NCBI GenBank assembly: GCA_033439295.1
Contig: JAVTLE010000023.1
Span: 2,702,530-2,766,529, forward strand
Length of the DNA stretch: 64,000 bases
Reading direction: 5' to 3'
From: Deuterostichococcus epilithicus
Taxonomy: Eukaryota; Chlorophyta; Trebouxiophyceae; Prasiolales; Stichococcaceae
Each line of letters begins with the position of its first letter. The first letter of the stretch is position 1. Positions 52,322-64,000 of the stretch are shown in pieces. The notes below the pieces were generated by a model. The model was not told where the DNA came from and searched no databases. It worked only from the letters and a program-made list of their open reading frames with translations. Both the position numbers and the translations under genes were made by a program.

Positions 52322-55300
52322 ATGGCAGGCTACGGCCTGGACGACAGCGACTTTGACGAATTCCTGGAAAGCAGCAGCGAGGATGAGGTGGAGCTGCCGC
52401 TGGCGACGCTTCCCGCCGCGCCCGCCGCGCCTGCGGGACCCATGTTCCAGGTCCTGCTCACCAGCACGGCCCAGCGGGTGCCAGCCTCGGGCGCCGCTGG
52501 CGACGCCTGTGTCACGGTGCCGCCGTCCAGGTGAGCCGGGCAGGGCTGGTCGATGCCTTGGCGCCAGGCCAACGGTGCAAACCTCAATGCGCATGCAAAG
52601 GGCGCCACGGCGGCAGGCACGCCCAGGAGCGAAGTTCCCACTGAGCGTATGTGCTCCGAGCTACTCTGGTTCTTTGTGACAGTATTGAGATGAGCTGCGC
52701 ACTTATCATCAGAGCGTCATCTGCGCCACTGCAGGTGGGACGTGGACATCGGCTGGAACGAGACCACGCAGCCCAACAAGCGCTTCGGCAGCTTCGTGCA
52801 GGATGCAGAGATGTTTGATGCCGCCTTCTTCAATGTGGCCGGCCCAGAGGCCGCGGCCATGGATGCGCAGCAGCGACTGCTGCTGGAGGGCTCGCACGAG
52901 GCCCTGCAGCGATCGCTGCCCCGTGACCTCTCAGGCGAGGTCTTTGCGGATGCCGTTCGGTTGTTACCATGCCACCCCTGTTCAAAGCAGCCGAGGCATC
53001 AAACCTTGTTCCTGAGACATCTGCAGTGAATCGCATGGCATCAAGACGCATGCCAGTGAAGGACCCGAACGCAAGCAAAGATAGGTTCTGCTTGGCCGCG
53101 CAGGCGACCAGGCGAGGCAGGTGTCCGTGGCGGTGGGCATCTCGTACACAGAGTATTACCTCAACTGCGTGCACATGGCCATGAGCGCCTACACCGCCAC
53201 CTCCGGCACCCTCAGGTCAGTGACTTAATTATAGCCAGTCGACAAAGACACCATTTCGAAGCATTGCAGCATCACTTCCCCGGCCGCGAGACAAGAAGGA
53301 TGACCACTCGCAGCTGCACAACAGCCAGCACATGGTATTCATTCATGCTGCCCTCGCTGGTCACCTGCACATGGCGGTGTTCCCAAGCCTGACACCCGGA
53401 CCTGTCCCTGCTGCAGTGTGGTGTGCGGGCGCATCAGCTTCACGCTGGGGCTGAAGGGCCCGTCGCTGTCCATCGACACCGCCTGCTCCTCCTCCCTCGT
53501 CGGCGCCCACGTATCCGCCACCAGCTTCCTGTCCGCCTCCTGCCCCAGGTGTGTGCGGGCCTCTCCTGCCTGGGCCGTCATTGCTGGGCCAGAGAAGGAC
53601 AGATTGACTTTTGTCATCAGCTCCTGGCGGTGCGTTGTACGGCGTCCTGCCCTGCCGATCCTGGCTGCAAGGCGAATCGGAAGCTACTTCAAGGGCTTGC
53701 CGGGCTTTACAAACCAGGCAGCGCAGGGCCATGTGCCCACTTGTAGTATAGTACCAGCCACCATATCGACGCTGCTCTTTGGTGCCGACCTGACCCGTTC
53801 GTGATCAGGGCGCTGGTTGCGGGTGTGAACCTCACAATGCGCGCGGAGACGACGGCGGTGCTGGCGAAAGCCGGCATGCTGACCGGTGACGGCCGCTGCA
53901 AGACGCTGGACGCCTCCGCAGACGGCTACGTCCGTGGCGAGGCCTGCGTGGTAAGTTGGCTTGCCCTTCAATCTCCGCAGACCTGAACTGGCAGAGCGAA
54001 ATGCATCAGCAGCACAGGCAAAACACCAAGGAACTCGTCGTTGGATCTGCCGCTTGTGCCTATTGAAGTCCCTTGCAATTTTTGAGCATGAAAGCGCCCT
54101 TGGCACGTCGCAGGTGCACTTGCTGGAGGCGGTGGAGCACGAAGCGCTGCAGGCGATGCTGTCGCAGCCCGAGTCCGTGGCCGCAAACGCCATCGTCATC
54201 CACGGCACGGCGGCCAACCAGGACGGACGGTCGAGCAGCCTGACGGCGCCCAATGGCCCATCGCAGCAGCAGGCACGATCCACTGTGAACCAACTGGTGC
54301 CAGGGGACCGGAGGCGCTGTGTTGATAGCACGTTGGTCTCGAGCTCGATTTGTGTACTGCTGGGTCTGACAGCTGTGCGATTGCCATATCGGTGATGTGT
54401 GAATCTGGTCACTCAGCAATACCTGGCGCATCATGGCCTTTCGAAGTTGACGGCTCTTTGCTTTGCACTAGGTCATTCGTGCCGCGCTTGCCGCCGGCGA
54501 GGCGCGTCCATCGTCCATTGCCGCACTGGAGATGCACGGCACTGGCACGTCACTTGGCGATCCTATCGAGGTCGGCGCCGCCTTTGCCGTGCTGCAGCCG
54601 CCAGCAGATGGCGTCCAGGTCACAGGTGCAATGGCAGACATTGAGACTCTGCACTCCTGCTTCCAACTCAGAAATTAAGCGCCATTCCGGTGATGTGCAC
54701 TCCTCTGCAATGCCAGAGGTGCAATGGCACTTTGAGGCTTCGCACTTGCTCTCCTGCATTTCAATTCAGAGCCAAGCGCTAGTCAGGTGATGTGCACTCC
54801 TCTGCAATGCCAGAAACGGCATTGCTGAAGAAGTACACTCCGACTGTCGTTGGTTACTCTGTTTTCCGCCACGCAATGAGGCTTTTCGACAAGCTGGAGA
54901 GTGTTGGTGGCGAATCCTGCGCCAGGCTTTGTCTGACCACGAGCCCCTGTCCCTACAGCCGGGCCGCTGGAGTTGGCGGCGGCAAAGTCGTCGCTCGCCC
55001 ACACAGAGCCCGCGGCGGGCGCCGTTGGCCTGGTGGCCCTGGCAGCTCGGCTGCTGCGGACTGACGCCTCGCCATTCCTGCACTTGCGGGCGCTGAACCC
55101 TTACGTGGAGAGCATCACGTCCAGCAGCCGCGGCCGCCGTGGCTGGCTGGCGCGGAGGCAGCCAACGGCGCTGCCGCTGCCTGAGGATGCCAGGTACTTA
55201 TTGCAGTCTCATCAGTGACTGCAGCGCTAGGTCCTTATGAACCACCATCTCAGCCACATCTCTATCGAGAGTCCTGCTGGGACATGCTGCCTCCCACCGG

Positions 55301-58300
55301 AGGTGCCGGATCGTTCAGTTGCCTCCCGTGTTGCAGGGCTGGCGTCAGCTCCTTCGCCTACCAGGGCACCAACTCGCACCTTGTGGCTGGCGCGCCTGCG
55401 GCGACAGTGGCGCTCACCACAGAACGAATGATGAGCTGGCAGCGGGCTCGTTTCTGGTACCAGGTGCACTTGCTATTGCTCGCGCTCTGGTGATGCTGTT
55501 GTCTGCTTGAGCGTGTACGGCAGTGTGAATTTTAAACTCCGTTGACATTTGAGAACCTCGGCAGCAGGCTGGCTTCTTTGCAGTGTGCCATCCCAAAAGC
55601 GCATGGCTTTGCTGGGTGTCCTTGCATGCATAACCGGCAGCACGGCGAGGCGATCGATGGCTTCTGGCATTCGCTATCTACGAGCGCCGCAGAGCAGCTG
55701 CATGATAAGCCGTGTCACCCCTGCTGCAGGTGACATGCCACCCGCTGCTGAGCAGCACCCGGCTGAGCGGCAATGGCGCGGTGGAGGTGCAGGCGCTGCT
55801 GCCTCGGCCCGCGCTGGCTTACCTGCGGGACCACCGCATCCAGGTGCTCGTTGCTGCCTTTCGGCGATGCTTTTAGCCTCTGGCTCATGCCTTGCCTCAG
55901 TTGGAAGAACTTTGGCCTGCAGCAATGCAAGTGATGGCAGCGCCGGCTTGAAGTGCATGAAGGGCTGCAAGGGCTCCTGCTCAGGATCAAGTGTCAACGC
56001 GAGCCGACTGCTGTGTCCATTTCTAGCTTGATATCCATAGTAGCCTCTGCCTGCTCACCTGGCAGGGCCACCTCATCGCACCGGCCACCTGCATGCTGGA
56101 GATGGCTTCAGCAGCTGGCAAGCTGCTCGGCTCCGCTGCTGATGTGCCGGGCGGCGCCTCCGCGGTGGTCGTTGACTCGGCGATGGCATCGCCACTGCTG
56201 CTGCCGCACATGGCAGCAGGAAGCATCACGACAGCAGGCAGCTCAGCCGCCGTTCTTGCTGTGGCCTGCGTCATTGACCTGCGCAGCAGCACAGCGCGGC
56301 TGCACACCTTGGCGGCAACTTCCGTCCGTCAGACGGTGCACCTGACAGCACAGTTGGCTGTACTACAGACTGCCAGCAGCAAAGCCACTTTGCATGCGGA
56401 CTTGCAGCTGCAGCAGGCAGATGCAGCACCGGTCGACAGCCGCGCAGCCCGCATGGCGCTGCTGCTGCTGGCGGTTGGCGCCTTGGCAGCTGCAGGCTGC
56501 CAGCAGGCGGTGACTGCGAACATCGACATGCTGTGCCACGCTAACAGCGGCTACGATGTCCACCCAGCCATTGGCGACGCGACCATACATGCCGGCGCCG
56601 CCGCCCGGGCCGCCGGGGACACAACATTCCTGGTATCCACTGCCGTCGGCGCATACTCTGCGCCGAAGATGCTGCCAGCTGGCGAGGCGTCTGTGAGCGT
56701 GCAGCTGTCTGCAGTGGGTGAAGACGGCTCCGTCGTCAGCAGCCACAGCATGCACTGTAGCGGCAGCAAACGGAGGGAGGCAGCAGGCGGCAGCCTGCCA
56801 GGCATCGCCGGCGTGCAGGCGCGGCCGCTCACCAGCACGGCAGCAGCGGCGGCTCAGGTGGCAGCAGCCGCTGCAGCGACGGCGAAAATGGCTGCAGAAA
56901 TGACAATCCCAGAATTTGACTTGTCCTTTGTGGACCCGCCGCCGCTGCCGCGAGTGCTGCCGGACACCATGGCGCCGCTCTCCCCTGAGTTCCTGTGGCA
57001 GGTGTGCTGTGCTTGGCCTGCAATACGTGCAAGATGTCGTTGTTGGGCATTCGATCACCACACTGCAGCATGCTGACCCTGATATGCATTCAATTGCAGC
57101 GGACTTGCTTCTGTAAGGGCAAGATACCTGCCATGCACCTTTGACCTTCTGAACCTACCCAGGCTGGCTTTCTCGCACTGAAAGCGACTGTAGTAGTGCA
57201 CTTTGCTGCAGGTTTTCAGCGTCTGCGCATGCTCTGCAGGTTGCATCAGCGCCGCTGCGGAACGACCTGCCGCCGCACTTCGACGCGGCGGTCGATGAGT
57301 TTGAGGCCTGGTGCCGCCACCTGCTGCTGGCGGCTTTTCAGCAGCTGGGCTTCTTCTGCAGTGCCGGCTCCTCGGAGACCAAAGCCAGCATCATGCAGAA
57401 GGCAAGGCTCCTGGTGCTCGAGTACCAGTCCTCTGGCACAGTCTCCAATCCACCCTCCTCCTGTTTTGTGTCGCAGGGTCTGACGCTGCACACCAATCGT
57501 CTGCCCATCAGCAGATGGAGATCAGGCGCTAGTAAGATGAGCCTACAACCTGTACTGACCTGTAGGTGGTGCCAATGCACGACCGCCTGACGTCAGAGCT
57601 GCTATCGGTCCTGGTTGCGGCCGGCTTCGTGTCGACCGAGTCTGCTGGCGGATTCACAGCCACACCAGAGGTTGACAGCCGGATGATGGCTGCAGCGCTG
57701 CAGCAGCTGCCGGCAACAGCAGAGCGCCTGGCGGCAGACATCGTTCCGCAGCTGCGGTCCAACATTCTGCTTGTCAGGGCGTGCATGGAGGCCCTGCCAC
57801 GTATCCTCACCGGTGCGACAGGCGATTCTCACATCACAAGAAACTTTGTGTGTGTATGTTAGCCACCTGCATGAGGCTAGGGTCACTGCAGCAAGAGGTG
57901 CAGCTCATCATGCCGCTCAGAGTGCAAGGTTCATGTCTGGATCGTCAGGAGTCTTTAATTTGACTTCCACTGAAACTGGTATATGAGCAGCAAGCATGAA
58001 CACATCGTTATGTCGCAGGCGAGGTGAAGGTGCCGGATGTGATGTTCCCCGGCGGCTCGCCGCACCTGGTAGAGCCCATCTACAAGGACCCCGCCCTGTC
58101 GGCGCCCTTCAACGAGCAGCTGGCGGACATCGTGCTGGCGCACTGCCGCCAGCGTCTCCCGGAACTGCAGCCCAGGGAAAAGATCCGCATAGTGGAGATC
58201 GGGTCCGGCTCCGGCGGCACCTCGGCGGTGGTACTAGCGGCGCTGACTGCGGCGTCGGGCGGCGCCGCCGCTGCCGCAGCGGCCGGCACTGGCGAGGGCG

Positions 58301-61300
58301 GCGCGGCGCCGGCAGACCCCTTGGTGCAGACCTTGACAGACCGCCTGGAGATTGTATACACCGACATCTCGCCGCAGCTGGTGGCATACGGGCGCAAGAC
58401 ATACGGCCCGGCGCACCCCTATGCGAAGTTCAGACTGTTGGACGTGGAGCGAGATGTGGAATCTCAGGCGAGTCCCCGATCATGTCTTCTTGTGCCCTGC
58501 ATTCGCTGACAGTTGCCCCGCCTGGATGTTGCGACTCTGAGTGCCTGAGAGGCACCGGTGAGGTCTGAGGACAACCTGCCCGTGATCTCCTCCTTGTCGG
58601 GCTGAGTGCTGTTGCCAGCAACAGCGCTGGCAGGCTCAGGCCAGACCGACAGTGGATGATCGCCTCGTTGGTGCCCTCAGACTTTGCCTGCCGTCTGCCG
58701 CCATTGCCAATCATACTCCTTGCCTGCGGCGGCTTCATTTTTGATATAGTAGTCTCGAATCGGTGGTCTCCATCACTGAACGCAGGGCTACGAGGCGGGC
58801 TCCTGCGACATCGTGTTTGCCACCAATGTGCTGCACGCGACGCGCAACATGGACAACACCCTCGCCCACAGCAAGGTGTGCTGCAGCAAGTTTGTGCGAT
58901 TCTGTGCTTCTTGTGCCGAGCGAAATTCCAGGAATGTGCTGTACAGAAGGCTCTGTACAGCGCCGGCAATCGCAGCGTCACCTGTGCATTTGTTTGTAGC
59001 TCTCTGTTTGCATGCCTTTCTGCAATCAAGCTGGCTGGTGAGGCTTTGACAATTCAAGTGCAGATTGCCGATGTGAAACAAAACTTCTCACATACCTTGC
59101 ACAGGTGCTGCTGCGAAAGGGCGGACTGCTGATTGCCAACGAGCTGACCTCAAAGACGGACTTCCTGACGCTCACTTTTGGCCTGACGGACGGCTGGTGG
59201 CTGTTTGATGACGCCGCACGCCGCATCCCCGGCGCGCCACTGCTCAGCAGGTTCGCATGTTCGGGCCACTATTCTGCCTACCACTTCTTGAAGGACGTCA
59301 TTCATCATGCATCTTGACAAGTAGGATGAGCCGCTGACTTCTTCTTGACAACCTCCTGCGATCTAAACTCTGCGCATCGAAGTGTGATGCAGCATGCTCA
59401 CATCGACGCATGTCGGCGCGTGTGCAGAGAGGGCTGGGTGGCACTAATGGCCGAGCAGGGCTTTGTCAGCGCGCAGCCAGCCGGCAACACCGGCAACCAC
59501 CCACGGCTGCTGTCGAGGCAGACCGTGGTTGTCGGCGCCAGCAACGGCATCATCCGGCCGGCGGCGGCCGCCGCAGCGCCACGTGTGCGTCTGGCAGAGA
59601 CGCTGCCGCTGCCAATGGAGCAGCTGCTGTCCAGGTTCAGGTGAGAGGTGTCTGAGCTGAGCATTGCCTTGCCGTCAGGCTGTAGGCTGACAGGGGCTGT
59701 GGACACAGGTGCTTTGAGCGAGCAGTATCCACCAGCTGCACCCGCACGCTTGCAGTGCAGGGTAATTTATCTACGTCGAAGTCCTGACGATACTTGTCAA
59801 TAGGTATGGTCAGGACATAGACTAGAGAGTTTATGTCCCCTGTAGGCCATCTAGCATCTGGCGGCTCATAACTCAACGCATTGTAGCTACTCGCACCCTA
59901 CTATCTCCGCCTGCCTACGCAGGTCGCTGCCGCTGCGTAATGACCTGCTGCCTGGCTTCGACGCTGCGGTGGCGGTCTTCGAAGCCTGGATGTCGCTGCT
60001 GCTGCTACGAGCGGCGCAGGCGCTGGGCTTCTTTACGACCCCCGGCGCCGCGTGCACGCGCGCAGACCTGGCGGCGGTCATCGTGCCGGCGTACACTCGC
60101 TTCAGCGAGGAGATGCTCGCCATGCTGCAGCGCGCAGGTGTGCTGTATAATATGCAATGCATCAGCTTTCAGATTTGGCCTGCTTATTTGCAAATCAACC
60201 CATGCTGCTGCTCCTGCTGCTGCTGCTGCCGCTGCTGCTGCTGCCACCACACAAGTGCTGAGAGGCCGTGCCCTGCGGCATGCTGCAAGACATCTGGAAG
60301 CAAAGAAGATGGCAATCTCCATGGCTGCCAATCAGAAGGCAGCACCGCGAGTGCAGCAGCCGGTGGATGTGTATCAGCGCCCCAAACCCCGAATGGTGTT
60401 CTGCAGGCTTCCTGGAGGTCGATGAGACTGGCGCAGTCGTCGCCACAGCTGCGGTCGCGAGCGAGGACACGCAGCAGCGGCTGGCGAGTGTCGCGGCAAC
60501 AAAGGCAGAGCTGGAGGCAGGGCCGGCGCGGGACATCGCGTCGAGCATCATCCTCGTCTGGGGGTGCATGGAGGCACTGCCGTGCATCTTGACAGGCGCG
60601 CTCCGACCTCGCAAGGGCGCACATTCATTACAGAGGATGGTTGAGGGCCGATGAGCAGCCTTTGGACCGCAATGGCGCAGTAGCTGGCCCATACAACGAC
60701 ACAACGATGCCAAGATCATTTGAAGACCGGCGATCAGTCGACACAGGCGAATTGGTTGGCATCAACGAAGCCTGTCCGCTGTGGGCGCAGGTGCCGTGGA
60801 CATCGCGGAGGTGATGTTCCCCGGCGGCTCGCCGCACCTGGTGGAGCCCATCTACAAGAACCCCGCCCTGTCGGCGCCCTTCAACGAACAGCTGGCGGCG
60901 GCGCTGACGGCCCGCGTGCGCGCGCTGCTGCCAGCACTGGGCCCCGGCCAGAGGGTCCGCATCGCGGAGATTGGGTCCGGCTCCGGCGGCACTTCGGCGG
61001 TGGTCCTGGCGGCGCTGGCGGCGGCGGACGACGGCGCACTGGCGCCGCACGTCGACTTCCTGTACACCGACATCTCGCCGCAGCTGGTGGGCTACGGCCG
61101 CAAGACGTACGGCCCCACGTACTCGTTCGCCCGCTTCAAGGTGCGCGGCGCCATGCCGGCTGGTTGCGCATCGTGCGGATCGGTAGTGGCCAATATGAGC
61201 AGCAAACGACACCCATGCTGCACTGGAACAAGTTGGTGTCGAAGCACTTTGAAGCAGTGCTGCATTGCCTGCTGGACACAGCTGAGACTGCCGATACCTG

Positions 61301-64000
61301 CAAACTTGGACCTGCAGCTCCAGTCTCGTCGATGGCCTTCAGGGCAATGCAGCATAACTGCACGCTGATCGATTTGTTGCCAAGTCATGCGTTTGATGCA
61401 AATGGTGCCAGACCCGAGTTCTGGTCCGGTGCCACCAACAGGTGCTGGATGTAGAGAAGGACATGTCGTCGGAGGGCGTCGGCAGCTTCGACATCATCTT
61501 CGCCACCAATGTGCTGCACGCCACCCGCAACATGGCCAACACGCTTCAGAACTGCAAGGTACGCATCGCTGGCAGAGTGATTGGACGTGGTGCCTGCCGA
61601 CGGGCGCGGCGCATTTCGCATTCTCTCTCAGTTCCTGAGCCAGCCCTCCTCCGCTGCAGCGGTGTCCACTCGGGTGGTCCACGGGCTCGTCATGGCGCTG
61701 TAGTAGCAAGCAGAGTCTTGCTGTCTGCAGGCTCTGCTGCGCCAGGGCGGCTTCATCATTGCCAACGAGCTGACTGCCAAGACGGACTTCCTGACGCTCA
61801 CCTTTGGCTTGACGGACGGCTGGTGGCTGTACGACGACCCCCATTGGCGCATGCCAGGTGTGCACCTGTTTCCAGATTTGCAGAAACGAGCAAATCAGCG
61901 AGGTGCTTCCGCCCGTGTGCAAGTACCAGTCCGCTTTGATCGGCAAGGTCTCTGGTTAGGATCTGGCGGCCCCTGGGTTTGGACCCACCTTGGCGCCAGG
62001 GGTTATTCTTGCTGACCAAGAGACTTACAAGCCTTAGACTTTCACATAGTGGAACATTGAACACCCATGCGCACAGGGTCGCCACTCATCAGTCGGGGCA
62101 GTTGGCAGGAACTGCTGAAGGCTCAAGGCTTCGAGGGCGTGCTCGTGGCGGGCAGCGACGTTGCCGCGCCGCCGCTGCTGGGCCGTCAATCAGTGGTGCT
62201 GGGCGTCAGCGACGGCGTCATTTACAAGCCCGACTTCACAGCTGCGGCGTTGAAAGTCAGGGCCGCAGCGCCAGCAGCGGCGCCGGCGCCTGCGCCGCTG
62301 CAGCGGGTGGTCGCGACGGGGCCTGATTCCGTTGCCATCGTGAAGGTGCGATGGGCCTATTCGATTAAGCTGGAGTCTAAACTTTGGACTTCCTGTGCAG
62401 ACGCTCGTTGCTGCGCGCCTATGCGTCGACGCATACCCGTCCGCATACCCGTCACATCCACAGCCGCATGCTGTCTGTCGCAAGCATGGCGGATCGTCTT
62501 GCTGGCGCTTCACTGAGACGACACTGCCGAACCTACTGTGCAGGAGCTGCGGCAGGTGGTGAACGAGCTGCTTGGGGAGGAAGTGCCACTCGACCAGCCA
62601 CTCATGGAGGCCGGCCTCGACTCCATCGGTGCTTATCTGCCGCCCGCACTCTGTCCTTCGGACGCTTCCAGCAATCAGCAATGTTTAGCCGCAGGATATT
62701 CTTGATCGTCAGCCAGAGCTCTTTCGATCTTAGGCACACATGAGGCGGCAGAGGACGAAATGAACAGTGGTGCATCGATTTGCGATTTTTGCGACCTTGC
62801 GCTCGTCTTCCATGCTGTGTTTCTTCCTGTCTGCAGGTGCTGTGGAGCTGCACAATGCAATCTCGGCCAAGTTCGGCATGGAGCTACCTGCCACAGCGAC
62901 CTTCGATCACCCCACGATCAGCGCTCTGGCCGTCTTCGTCGCCAGGCGCATGGCCCCCGAGCCAGCGGCCCCGGCCAGTGACGATGCCACGGCGTGGCAG
63001 CATAACGGCACTGTGGCGGCAATGCAGCAGGCTGCAGCAGCAGCTGCGCAGCAGGATCTGCAGAGGCGGCTGCAGCTCGCGGTCGATGAGCTGCTGGGCT
63101 TCCCTGTGGCGGCTGACATGCCACTCATGGAGGCCGGCCTCGACTCCATTGGTGCGTAGCTGCAAACCTGACCCGCCATCGCTTAGTGAAACACGGTCGT
63201 GTGGCCATGACTTACTCCCGGGAGGATAACTCTCGGGTGAGTAGAGGTGCTTCCTGCACACACAAGCTCAGCCTACAGTCGAGCTTTGTGACTTGCAGTC
63301 CTTGATGCATCAGGCGATGGTGCACATCCAGGATTGCAAACCGCATCCCGATCGAATGCAGGCGCCGTGGAACTTCGCAACAGCGTGTCAGCCTCCTTCG
63401 GCCTGGAGCTGCCGGTCACTGCCACCTTCGACTACCCCACCGTCACTGCCCTGGCCGACTTCATCGCCTCGAAGACCACGCCGCCGCCGGCAGACATGGC
63501 GCCCTCTGCCAACGGCAGCCACGAGGTGGTGCTACACACCGCCGCGCCGTCAATTGCTGCCGTGCTGACTCAGCTGCAGGTGTGTGAAACAATCTTTCTG
63601 TCACATGTCTCCGTGTATCGTGTGGCAGCGCACATTGACCTGAAAGGAGGTTTCAAAAAAGGACCAATCCGAAGCGCAGCTACCAAAGTTCGTCTGCATG
63701 CTGCCCGGCTCAGAAGTTGCTTGCGTCAGGCCTGCGGCAAGCAGACGGCGCGCCGATGTCTCGATGACTGACACACTAGAGGCTCGATTTCGTGATTGCT
63801 TGATCGTGACTGCTGTGCCCCTTGCTATACGGCAGGAGGTCGTGAACGAGCTGGTGGGCTTTGAGGTGGCGGCGGACCAGCCGCTCATGGAGGCCGGCCT
63901 CGACTCCATCGGTGTGCCTGCTTCGCCCCCGTTGCTCCTCCCTGATTGGTTCTGAGCTCCCACCTGCAGCTGAACGAGCGAATTCATTCCAAGATGAGCA
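52322..64000 (+). CDS. Large type I polyketide synthase (KS-DH-cMT-cMT-ACP-ACP-ACP...), partial
   Basis: Starts [18 protein letters not shown] and runs off the right edge. 27 exons: 52322-52530, 52735-52939, 53121-53215, 53417-53548, 53809-53950, 54114-54272, 54472-54625, 54959-55193, 55337-55463, 55730-55843, 56066-57001, 57240-57413, 57566-57812, 58019-58467, 58786-58875, 59105-59250, 59428-59640, 59923-60137, 60407-60595, 60791-61140, 61442-61558, 61731-61857, 62077-62345, 62544-62628, 62837-63151, 63362-63579, 63836-63911; 1,929 codons, all in frame. KS triad Cys193 (DTACSSS), His336 (MHGTGT), His380 ([12 protein letters not shown]). DH: His521 in DHRIQGHLIAP, Asp695 in [10 protein letters not shown]. 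cMT1 about 837-1276 and cMT2 about 1277-1690, each [13 protein letters not shown] serines 1725, 1830, 1928 (GLDSIG). No AT, KR or TE is seen. Three introns start with GC. No targeting peptide, so cytosolic assembly is likely. Confidence 0.95.
52370..55463 (+). other. PKS ketosynthase (KS) domain
   Basis: Residues about 45-486. It begins with the algal-type [11 protein letters not shown] instead of the usual IAIVGM...FPGG, then [83 protein letters not shown] and [12 protein letters not shown]. All three catalytic residues are present, so the domain should be active. It ends directly in a WQRARFWY linker that leads into the dehydratase. Confidence 0.9.
54628..54815. repeat. Two-copy tandem repeat in PKS intron 7
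   Basis: The 29 bp string starting GGTGATGTGCACTCCTCTGC occurs at 54689 and again at 54786. The flanks (GTGCAATGGC ... AAGCGC) also repeat with changes, giving a roughly 97 bp unit in two copies. The first copy starts at the intron's own donor. Confidence 0.8.
55730..57001 (+). other. PKS dehydratase (DH) domain
   Basis: Residues about 487-836. The double-hotdog DH opens with [17 protein letters not shown] and [19 protein letters not shown], which carries the HxxxGxxxxP motif. The second half holds [14 protein letters not shown] with the catalytic Asp. Both catalytic residues are present. The distal part is unusually rich in Ala, Ser and Val, and a low-complexity Ala stretch near 56840-56900 leads to the methyltransferase. 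Confidence 0.85.
57240..59640 (+). other. PKS C-methyltransferase domain 1
   Basis: Residues about 837-1276: [20 protein letters not shown] lid region, [23 protein letters not shown]-binding [56 protein letters not shown] and [11 protein letters not shown]. It is complete relative to polyketide synthase cMT domains. It would add a methyl at the alpha carbon of the growing chain. Confidence 0.88.
59923..62345 (+). other. PKS C-methyltransferase domain 2 (tandem copy)
   Basis: Residues about 1277-1690. It repeats the whole of domain 1, including the lid ([20 protein letters not shown]), [58 protein letters not shown] and [14 protein letters not shown]. Intron positions and phases match domain 1. 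Nothing looks inactivating. Confidence 0.88.
60200..60243. repeat. (CTG)n-rich microsatellite in PKS intron
   Basis: Interrupted CTG units (CTGCTGCTCCTGCTGCTG...) lie in the intron 60138-60406, upstream of a CTGCAG acceptor. It is not coding in the model. Confidence 0.75.
62544..63911 (+). other. Three tandem acyl carrier protein (ACP) domains
   Basis: Phosphopantetheine sites GLDSIG occur at serines 1725, 1830 and 1928, about 100 residues apart. Each has the preceding helix ([23 protein letters not shown]) and [10 protein letters not shown] or [10 protein letters not shown]. The first two are followed by AVEL(H/R)N, FGMELP or FGLELP, and TFD(H/Y)PT. The third is cut by an intron after its serine, and its second half lies past 63911 or off the edge. 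Confidence 0.9.

Follow-up and report, generated by a model that had tools for sequence, protein, structure and literature searches.

The window analysed, a 64,000-nucleotide stretch of the Deuterostichococcus epilithicus genome (C19:2702530-2766529; genome of 46.8 Mb in 21 contigs), holds the 5′ part of a giant type I polyketide synthase (PKS) gene that seems to be intact; the gene occupies window positions 52322..64000 on the forward strand and continues for about 86 kb beyond the window end. The first exon (52322-52530, +) opens with an ATG at 52322, KS exon matches on contig C19 run on past the window end on the same strand, and the gene model computed from the DNA (C19:2754851-2852509) comprises 208 exons encoding 13,867 amino acids with zero internal stops, the gene ending at about C19:2852509. 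A second PKS gene without integrated acyltransferase (AT) domains, with six KS modules, lies at C7:2819178-2898600; its computed model (2819178-2899906; 136 exons, 8,063 residues) lacks a readable end and extends into an apparently different gene, presumably a NUP98-like neighbour. Both regions (C19:2744001-2874000 and C7:2814001-2904000; 220 kb) were analysed with a purpose-written spliced profile aligner, using domain profiles from the best 80 bacterial PKS loci by KS query among the matches listed, and with gene models trained on 37,074 coding bases. The splice sites of the 180 introns obtained from spliced alignment have a strong consensus; the gene models are imperfect, with at least one exon missed (in the first methyltransferase) and at least two junctions mis-spliced.

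The predicted protein and Pfam assign module 1 the order KS-DH-MT-MT-ACP-ACP-ACP, without a KR; the two methyltransferases, the three ACPs and the lack of a KR were absent from an earlier note on this DNA. The KS domain (52499..55404, +), identified by spliced profile alignment and Pfam and interrupted by 8 introns, has a spliced profile score of 348, or 405 with trained splice weights, compared with a null maximum of 25.7. Pfam matches to module 1 above cut-off are ketoacyl-synt (163 bits), Ketoacyl-synt_C (75) and PKS_DH_N (43); PS-DH (14 bits, cut-off 23.7) and KAsynt_C_assoc (14 bits, cut-off 33) fall below, such that the DH domain (55736..56666, +) is above cut-off in its N half and below it in its C half, and Pfam returned no AT family in module 1. 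The KS active-site residues are kept, i.e. Cys (DTACSS), His (HGTGT) and His (KSSLAH), as is the DH motif HRIQGHLIAP, in agreement with the earlier claim that the KS and DH residues are intact. The three ACPs, each with the motif GLDSIG in the predicted protein and supported by Pfam, lie at 62343..62955, 63058..63477 and 63559..64000 (all +), the third leaving the window and ending at about C19:2766736.

The C-methyltransferases of module 1 are well defined by spliced alignment to a bacterial profile. The first (57321..59554, +) scores 268.9 bits (reverse strand 18.1), including an exon at 57321-57401 that is absent from the gene model and became visible with the second copy as template; the second (59999..62222, +) scores 254.3 bits (reverse strand 21.1). 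The two are 53.2% identical (205/385 aligned positions), have five introns each and share GSGSGG, NVLHAT and NELT. As in PKS C-methyltransferases of the DisA and CurJ type, both have a SAM motif together with the expected His and Glu residues. The solved structures nearest to the second copy are DisA (6cca, E 2.2e-62), AprA MT2 (6.3e-43) and CurJ (1.6e-35), and tandem methyltransferases of the apratoxin type may be a parallel for this pair. The DNA scan and the predicted proteins revealed no methyltransferase in the other modules of either gene. One or both of the tandem enzymes would methylate the α-carbon in module 1; because this module is without a KR, a methylated β-keto product is the simplest expectation and its DH would probably idle.

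Spliced profile scans and predicted proteins give ten modules for the C19 gene and six for the C7 gene. In the predicted C19 protein, modules 2, 6 and 8 read KS-DH-KR-ACP-ACP, module 3 KS-DH-ER-KR-ACP-ACP, modules 4 and 7 KS-KR-ACP, module 5 KS-DH-KR-ACP-ACP-ACP and module 9 KS-DH-KR-ACP; for module 4, the DNA scan picked up a piece of DH (score 32, against a null maximum of 25.9). Module 10 (KS-DH-KR) is followed, by Pfam and in the predicted protein, by a tandem ACP-TE-ACP-TE at the gene end (C19:2847761-2852509), in which both thioesterases read GTCLG, thus carrying Cys at the position where the family usually has Ser. The C7 gene begins with an ACP, followed by six KS modules, each with a KR and a DH signal (weak in the first), and has one ER and an ACP-ACP pair in its last module; no TE was seen in its predicted protein. 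KS scores range from 329 to 462 in the C19 gene (KS9 being in two pieces, of 103 and 329) and from 311 to 424 in the C7 gene; Cys-His-His is kept in all 16 KSs, and an HxxxGxxxxP DH motif is readable in 5 of the 10 C19 modules and 4 of the 6 C7 modules. That the C7 product feeds module 1 of the C19 gene is a possibility that we rate at slightly below even. With respect to loading domains, a GNAT-type domain suspected by eye ahead of the C7 ACP was rejected, as Pfam identified only PP-binding there and a PDB search nothing. Adenylation domain scores, from a profile of 10 bacterial A domains used without a positive control, were close to reverse-strand level for both the C19 gene (best 29.9, reverse strand 28.6) and the C7 gene (25.5 and 22.4), and hence no adenylation domain was seen in either.

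The KS-DH junction is compact in both genes. In module 1 a single exon of the model (55337-55463) contains the whole stretch from GTNSH to WQRARFW (55365..55457, +), which measures 24 residues start to start, in agreement with the earlier note, where WQRARFWY was placed within about 25 residues of the KS end. The KS end could be located by pattern in 15 of the 16 modules (the exception being C19 module 6), and in 14 of these 15 junctions a [WFY]xRxRxW-type motif follows at a distance of 24-41 residues (24-28 in 13 of the 14); none was found in C19 module 7. Twelve of these motif calls were made by script in the gene model and two by eye, through in-frame reading (C19 module 4 and C7 module 3); the motif occurs in 1.7% of shuffled segments. 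KS end and motif share one predicted exon in nine junctions and one open frame in the two read-on cases, so that 11 junctions are independent of splicing and leave no room for an AT in between. The compact junction thus recurs through two PKS genes.

Among the matches listed, bacterial KSs labelled as cis-AT (n=110) have the motif in 47 cases, at 367-534 residues. The bacterial AT-less KSs (15 of the 16 so labelled, among the matches listed) mostly have it 103-173 residues on (11 of 15), in contrast with the 24-41 residues in the alga; the remainder have it at 43 (one) or 25 (one) or lack it by pattern (two), the latter two seeming by eye to match their close relatives (about 100 and 25 residues). 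A KS-AT linker or flanking subdomain is described as conserved in bacterial trans-AT KSs in the available text of PMC11907408 and PMC11260071. Judged from sequence, both the AT and the KS-AT linker are gone in the algal modules. The compact junction is not unique to the alga, being shared by a few bacterial AT-less KS-DH modules, i.e. L058 and L070 (Acetobacteraceae, Falsiroseomonas) and L045 (Desulfobacteraceae), with junctions of 25 residues in L058 and 43 in L045 by pattern and a short junction by eye in L070.

Spliced profiles, Pfam and the single-exon junction bear out the earlier note in that the KS is joined straight to the DH without an AT. The interval 55193-55730, from which an AT had been excluded, is only 536 bases long and already holds the junction exon, the size of an AT being about 280 residues. 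Across C19:2744001-2874000 and C7:2814001-2904000 the best forward AT score was 28 (rounded), with a null maximum of 28.3 from reverse strands and a reversed profile, and neither the DNA scan nor the predicted proteins revealed an integrated AT in any of the ten C19 or six C7 modules. An AT later in the same protein was likewise sought; the best match in the predicted 13,867-residue protein has E = 0.59, and therefore none was found. An AT concealed by short exons or an assembly gap might be suspected given that at least one true exon, in the first methyltransferase, escaped the gene model, that two junctions were mis-spliced and that five N letters lie within the C19 stretch. However, the same spliced search detects a FabD-type gene on C5 in six pieces at 174.6 bits (its reverse strand 19.3), whereas nothing here exceeds 28.3; KS end and motif are in one open frame in 11 junctions; and the N letters, at 2832319 and beyond, are far from module 1. 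We consider a concealed AT highly improbable. The earlier note had offered either a trans-AT arrangement or a module that lost its AT. Loss by deletion or decay from module 1 alone, in an otherwise cis-AT PKS, would fit with the oddity of this module, with its two methyltransferases and zero KR, but is without support because every module lacks an AT (0/16 across both genes); module 1 has, moreover, retained intact motifs in its KS and ACPs, and the probability of such a lone loss is very small. Both a hidden split AT and a lone lost AT were rejected on the AT null scores, the positive control and the one-frame junctions, leaving the trans-AT arrangement as the part of that proposal that stands.

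The proposed search for a free-standing FabD-like partner gave two candidates. A loose genome-wide search with TIGR00128 (E 10), which worked exon by exon such that diverged or heavily split genes may escape it, returned 12 exon matches in two genes, both outside the PKS regions, on C5 (989442-991270, exon matches) and on C19 (1370476-1372871, exon matches); PF00698 gave one genome-wide match, from two candidates. The C5 gene, in its own single open model (C5:987492-991307), is predicted to encode an ankyrin-AT fusion, with Ank (47.2 bits, cut-off 21.1) ahead of AT (99.1 bits, cut-off 32.7) by Pfam. In the frame of its first AT exon no Met precedes GQGSQ, and an upstream exon must therefore supply the start, though the predicted fusion could represent two merged genes. 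A brief literature search found no publication on an ankyrin-fused transacylase. The C19 FabD-type gene reads SADDQFVHYKVKTAFLFPGQGAQTVGM, which we take to resemble plant plastid transacylases; since it is plastid-like, the ankyrin form is somewhat favoured over it as the trans-acting partner. The FabD-type ATs probably serve the C19 PKS line: a free-standing malonyl-CoA:ACP transacylase of this type would load malonyl units onto the ACPs, and each KS would condense them. The genome thus offers, in the predicted ankyrin-fused FabD-type AT, a concrete candidate for how AT-less eukaryotic assembly lines recruit an acyltransferase.

Because an AT was found in none of the 16 modules, all 16 KSs keep Cys-His-His and two FabD-type genes lie elsewhere, the sequence evidence supports trans-AT as the best reading of the C19 gene, and the window very probably contains the 5′ part of a chlorophyte giant modular type I PKS gene that is loaded in trans. 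The AT-less state and its in-trans solution are already in print, as the available text of PMC4661987, PMC6972661, PMC7073580 and PMC12633428 indicates, and are not new here. The earlier note could not name a system with this domain order; as far as the text of Shelest et al. (2015; PMC4661987) was available, most chlorophyte multimodular PKSs lack an integrated AT, so that AT-less modules already predominate among them. As in the PKSs of that study, the gene is multimodular, no AT was found in its modules and AT genes lie elsewhere, the loading role of the latter being putative. The introns, their splice-site consensus and the plant-like FabD gene may point to a chlorophyte host. According to the same partial text, Chlorella variabilis CvaPKS1/2 and Coccomyxa subellipsoidea CsuPKS1 are likewise AT-less chlorophyte modular type I PKSs in the MDa range, a PKS with ten KSs occurs in Coccomyxa, and a methyltransferase is attributed to CsuPKS1; the ten-KS and methyltransferase-bearing PKSs are probably the same gene. 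Methyltransferases are described there as absent from most algal trans-AT PKSs, whereas two are in tandem here, the comparison being by description.

The Chlamydomonas PKS1-type, in the available text of PMC7073580 (Heimerl et al. 2018 by citation), is similarly a giant chlorophyte trans-AT PKS with a terminal TE, but its description includes an adenylation domain at the N terminus and 10-11 modules of the highly reducing kind; in the present genes no such domain was seen, and each has one ER. Chlorella vulgaris g276, a PKS/FAS-like gene, has, in the accessible part of PMC6972661, 11 KSs and six ERs, without an AT and with two transacylases in the genome, a cytoplasmic malonyl-CoA:ACP transacylase being proposed as AT supplier; in D. 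epilithicus the KSs are instead divided between two genes (ten and six), and each of these has one ER. The additions made here are the tandem C-methyltransferases of module 1, the loss of the linker along with the AT, and the two FabD-type genes, one predicted to be ankyrin-fused.

The proposed KS phylogeny was run against bacterial cis-AT and AT-less KSs (76 rows: 16 algal, 42 of the 110 cis-AT, 16 AT-less bacterial among the matches listed and 2 type II). The 16 algal KSs form a clade of their own (100/99), separate from a clade (100/100) that comprises 11 of the 16 bacterial KSs without an AT, in an analysis whose bootstrap had not settled; in the 76-row tree the algal KSs were not placed in the bacterial trans-AT clade but adjoin, with weak support (80/25), two AT-less bacterial KSs, L058 and L070. 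The algal genes share with bacterial trans-AT PKSs AT-less modules, a post-AT-type motif and a C-methyltransferase of the same family. An alternative to AT loss from a cis-AT ancestor is acquisition from bacterial trans-AT PKSs. In its favour, the algal C-methyltransferase is nearest, among solved structures, to DisA, which is from a trans-AT line, and forcing the algal and 11 bacterial trans-AT KSs into one shared clade was rejected only at a borderline level (AU p 0.046). The two separate clades nonetheless argue against acquisition, as does the linker, which is kept by most bacterial AT-less KSs among the matches listed and gone here; displacement within algae is, furthermore, argued by Shelest et al. 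in the available text of PMC4661987, with which the separate-origin result of our tree agrees. We regard bacterial acquisition as improbable, the KS tree weakly favouring a separate algal origin. A fuller account of an algal trans-AT system is tentative and, taken as a whole, rather doubtful: with the AT and the whole linker removed, the KS would abut the post-AT motif and DH; a cytosolic malonyl transacylase would have acquired an ankyrin-repeat arm for docking to the giant synthase; and the tandem methyltransferases would introduce one methyl group or a gem-dimethyl pair.

The genome also carries, outside the window, a very large NRPS-like locus (C11:1151552-1245941, +; about 94 kb), with 46 Condensation matches in 17 clusters (58/58 candidates scored), at least 14 separate AMP-binding N-terminal matches (PF00501; 14/73 genome-wide candidates scored) and 14 PP-binding matches. 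The available text of Shelest et al. (2015; PMC4661987) describes algal NRPSs as rare and the largest microalgal one as having 10 domains.
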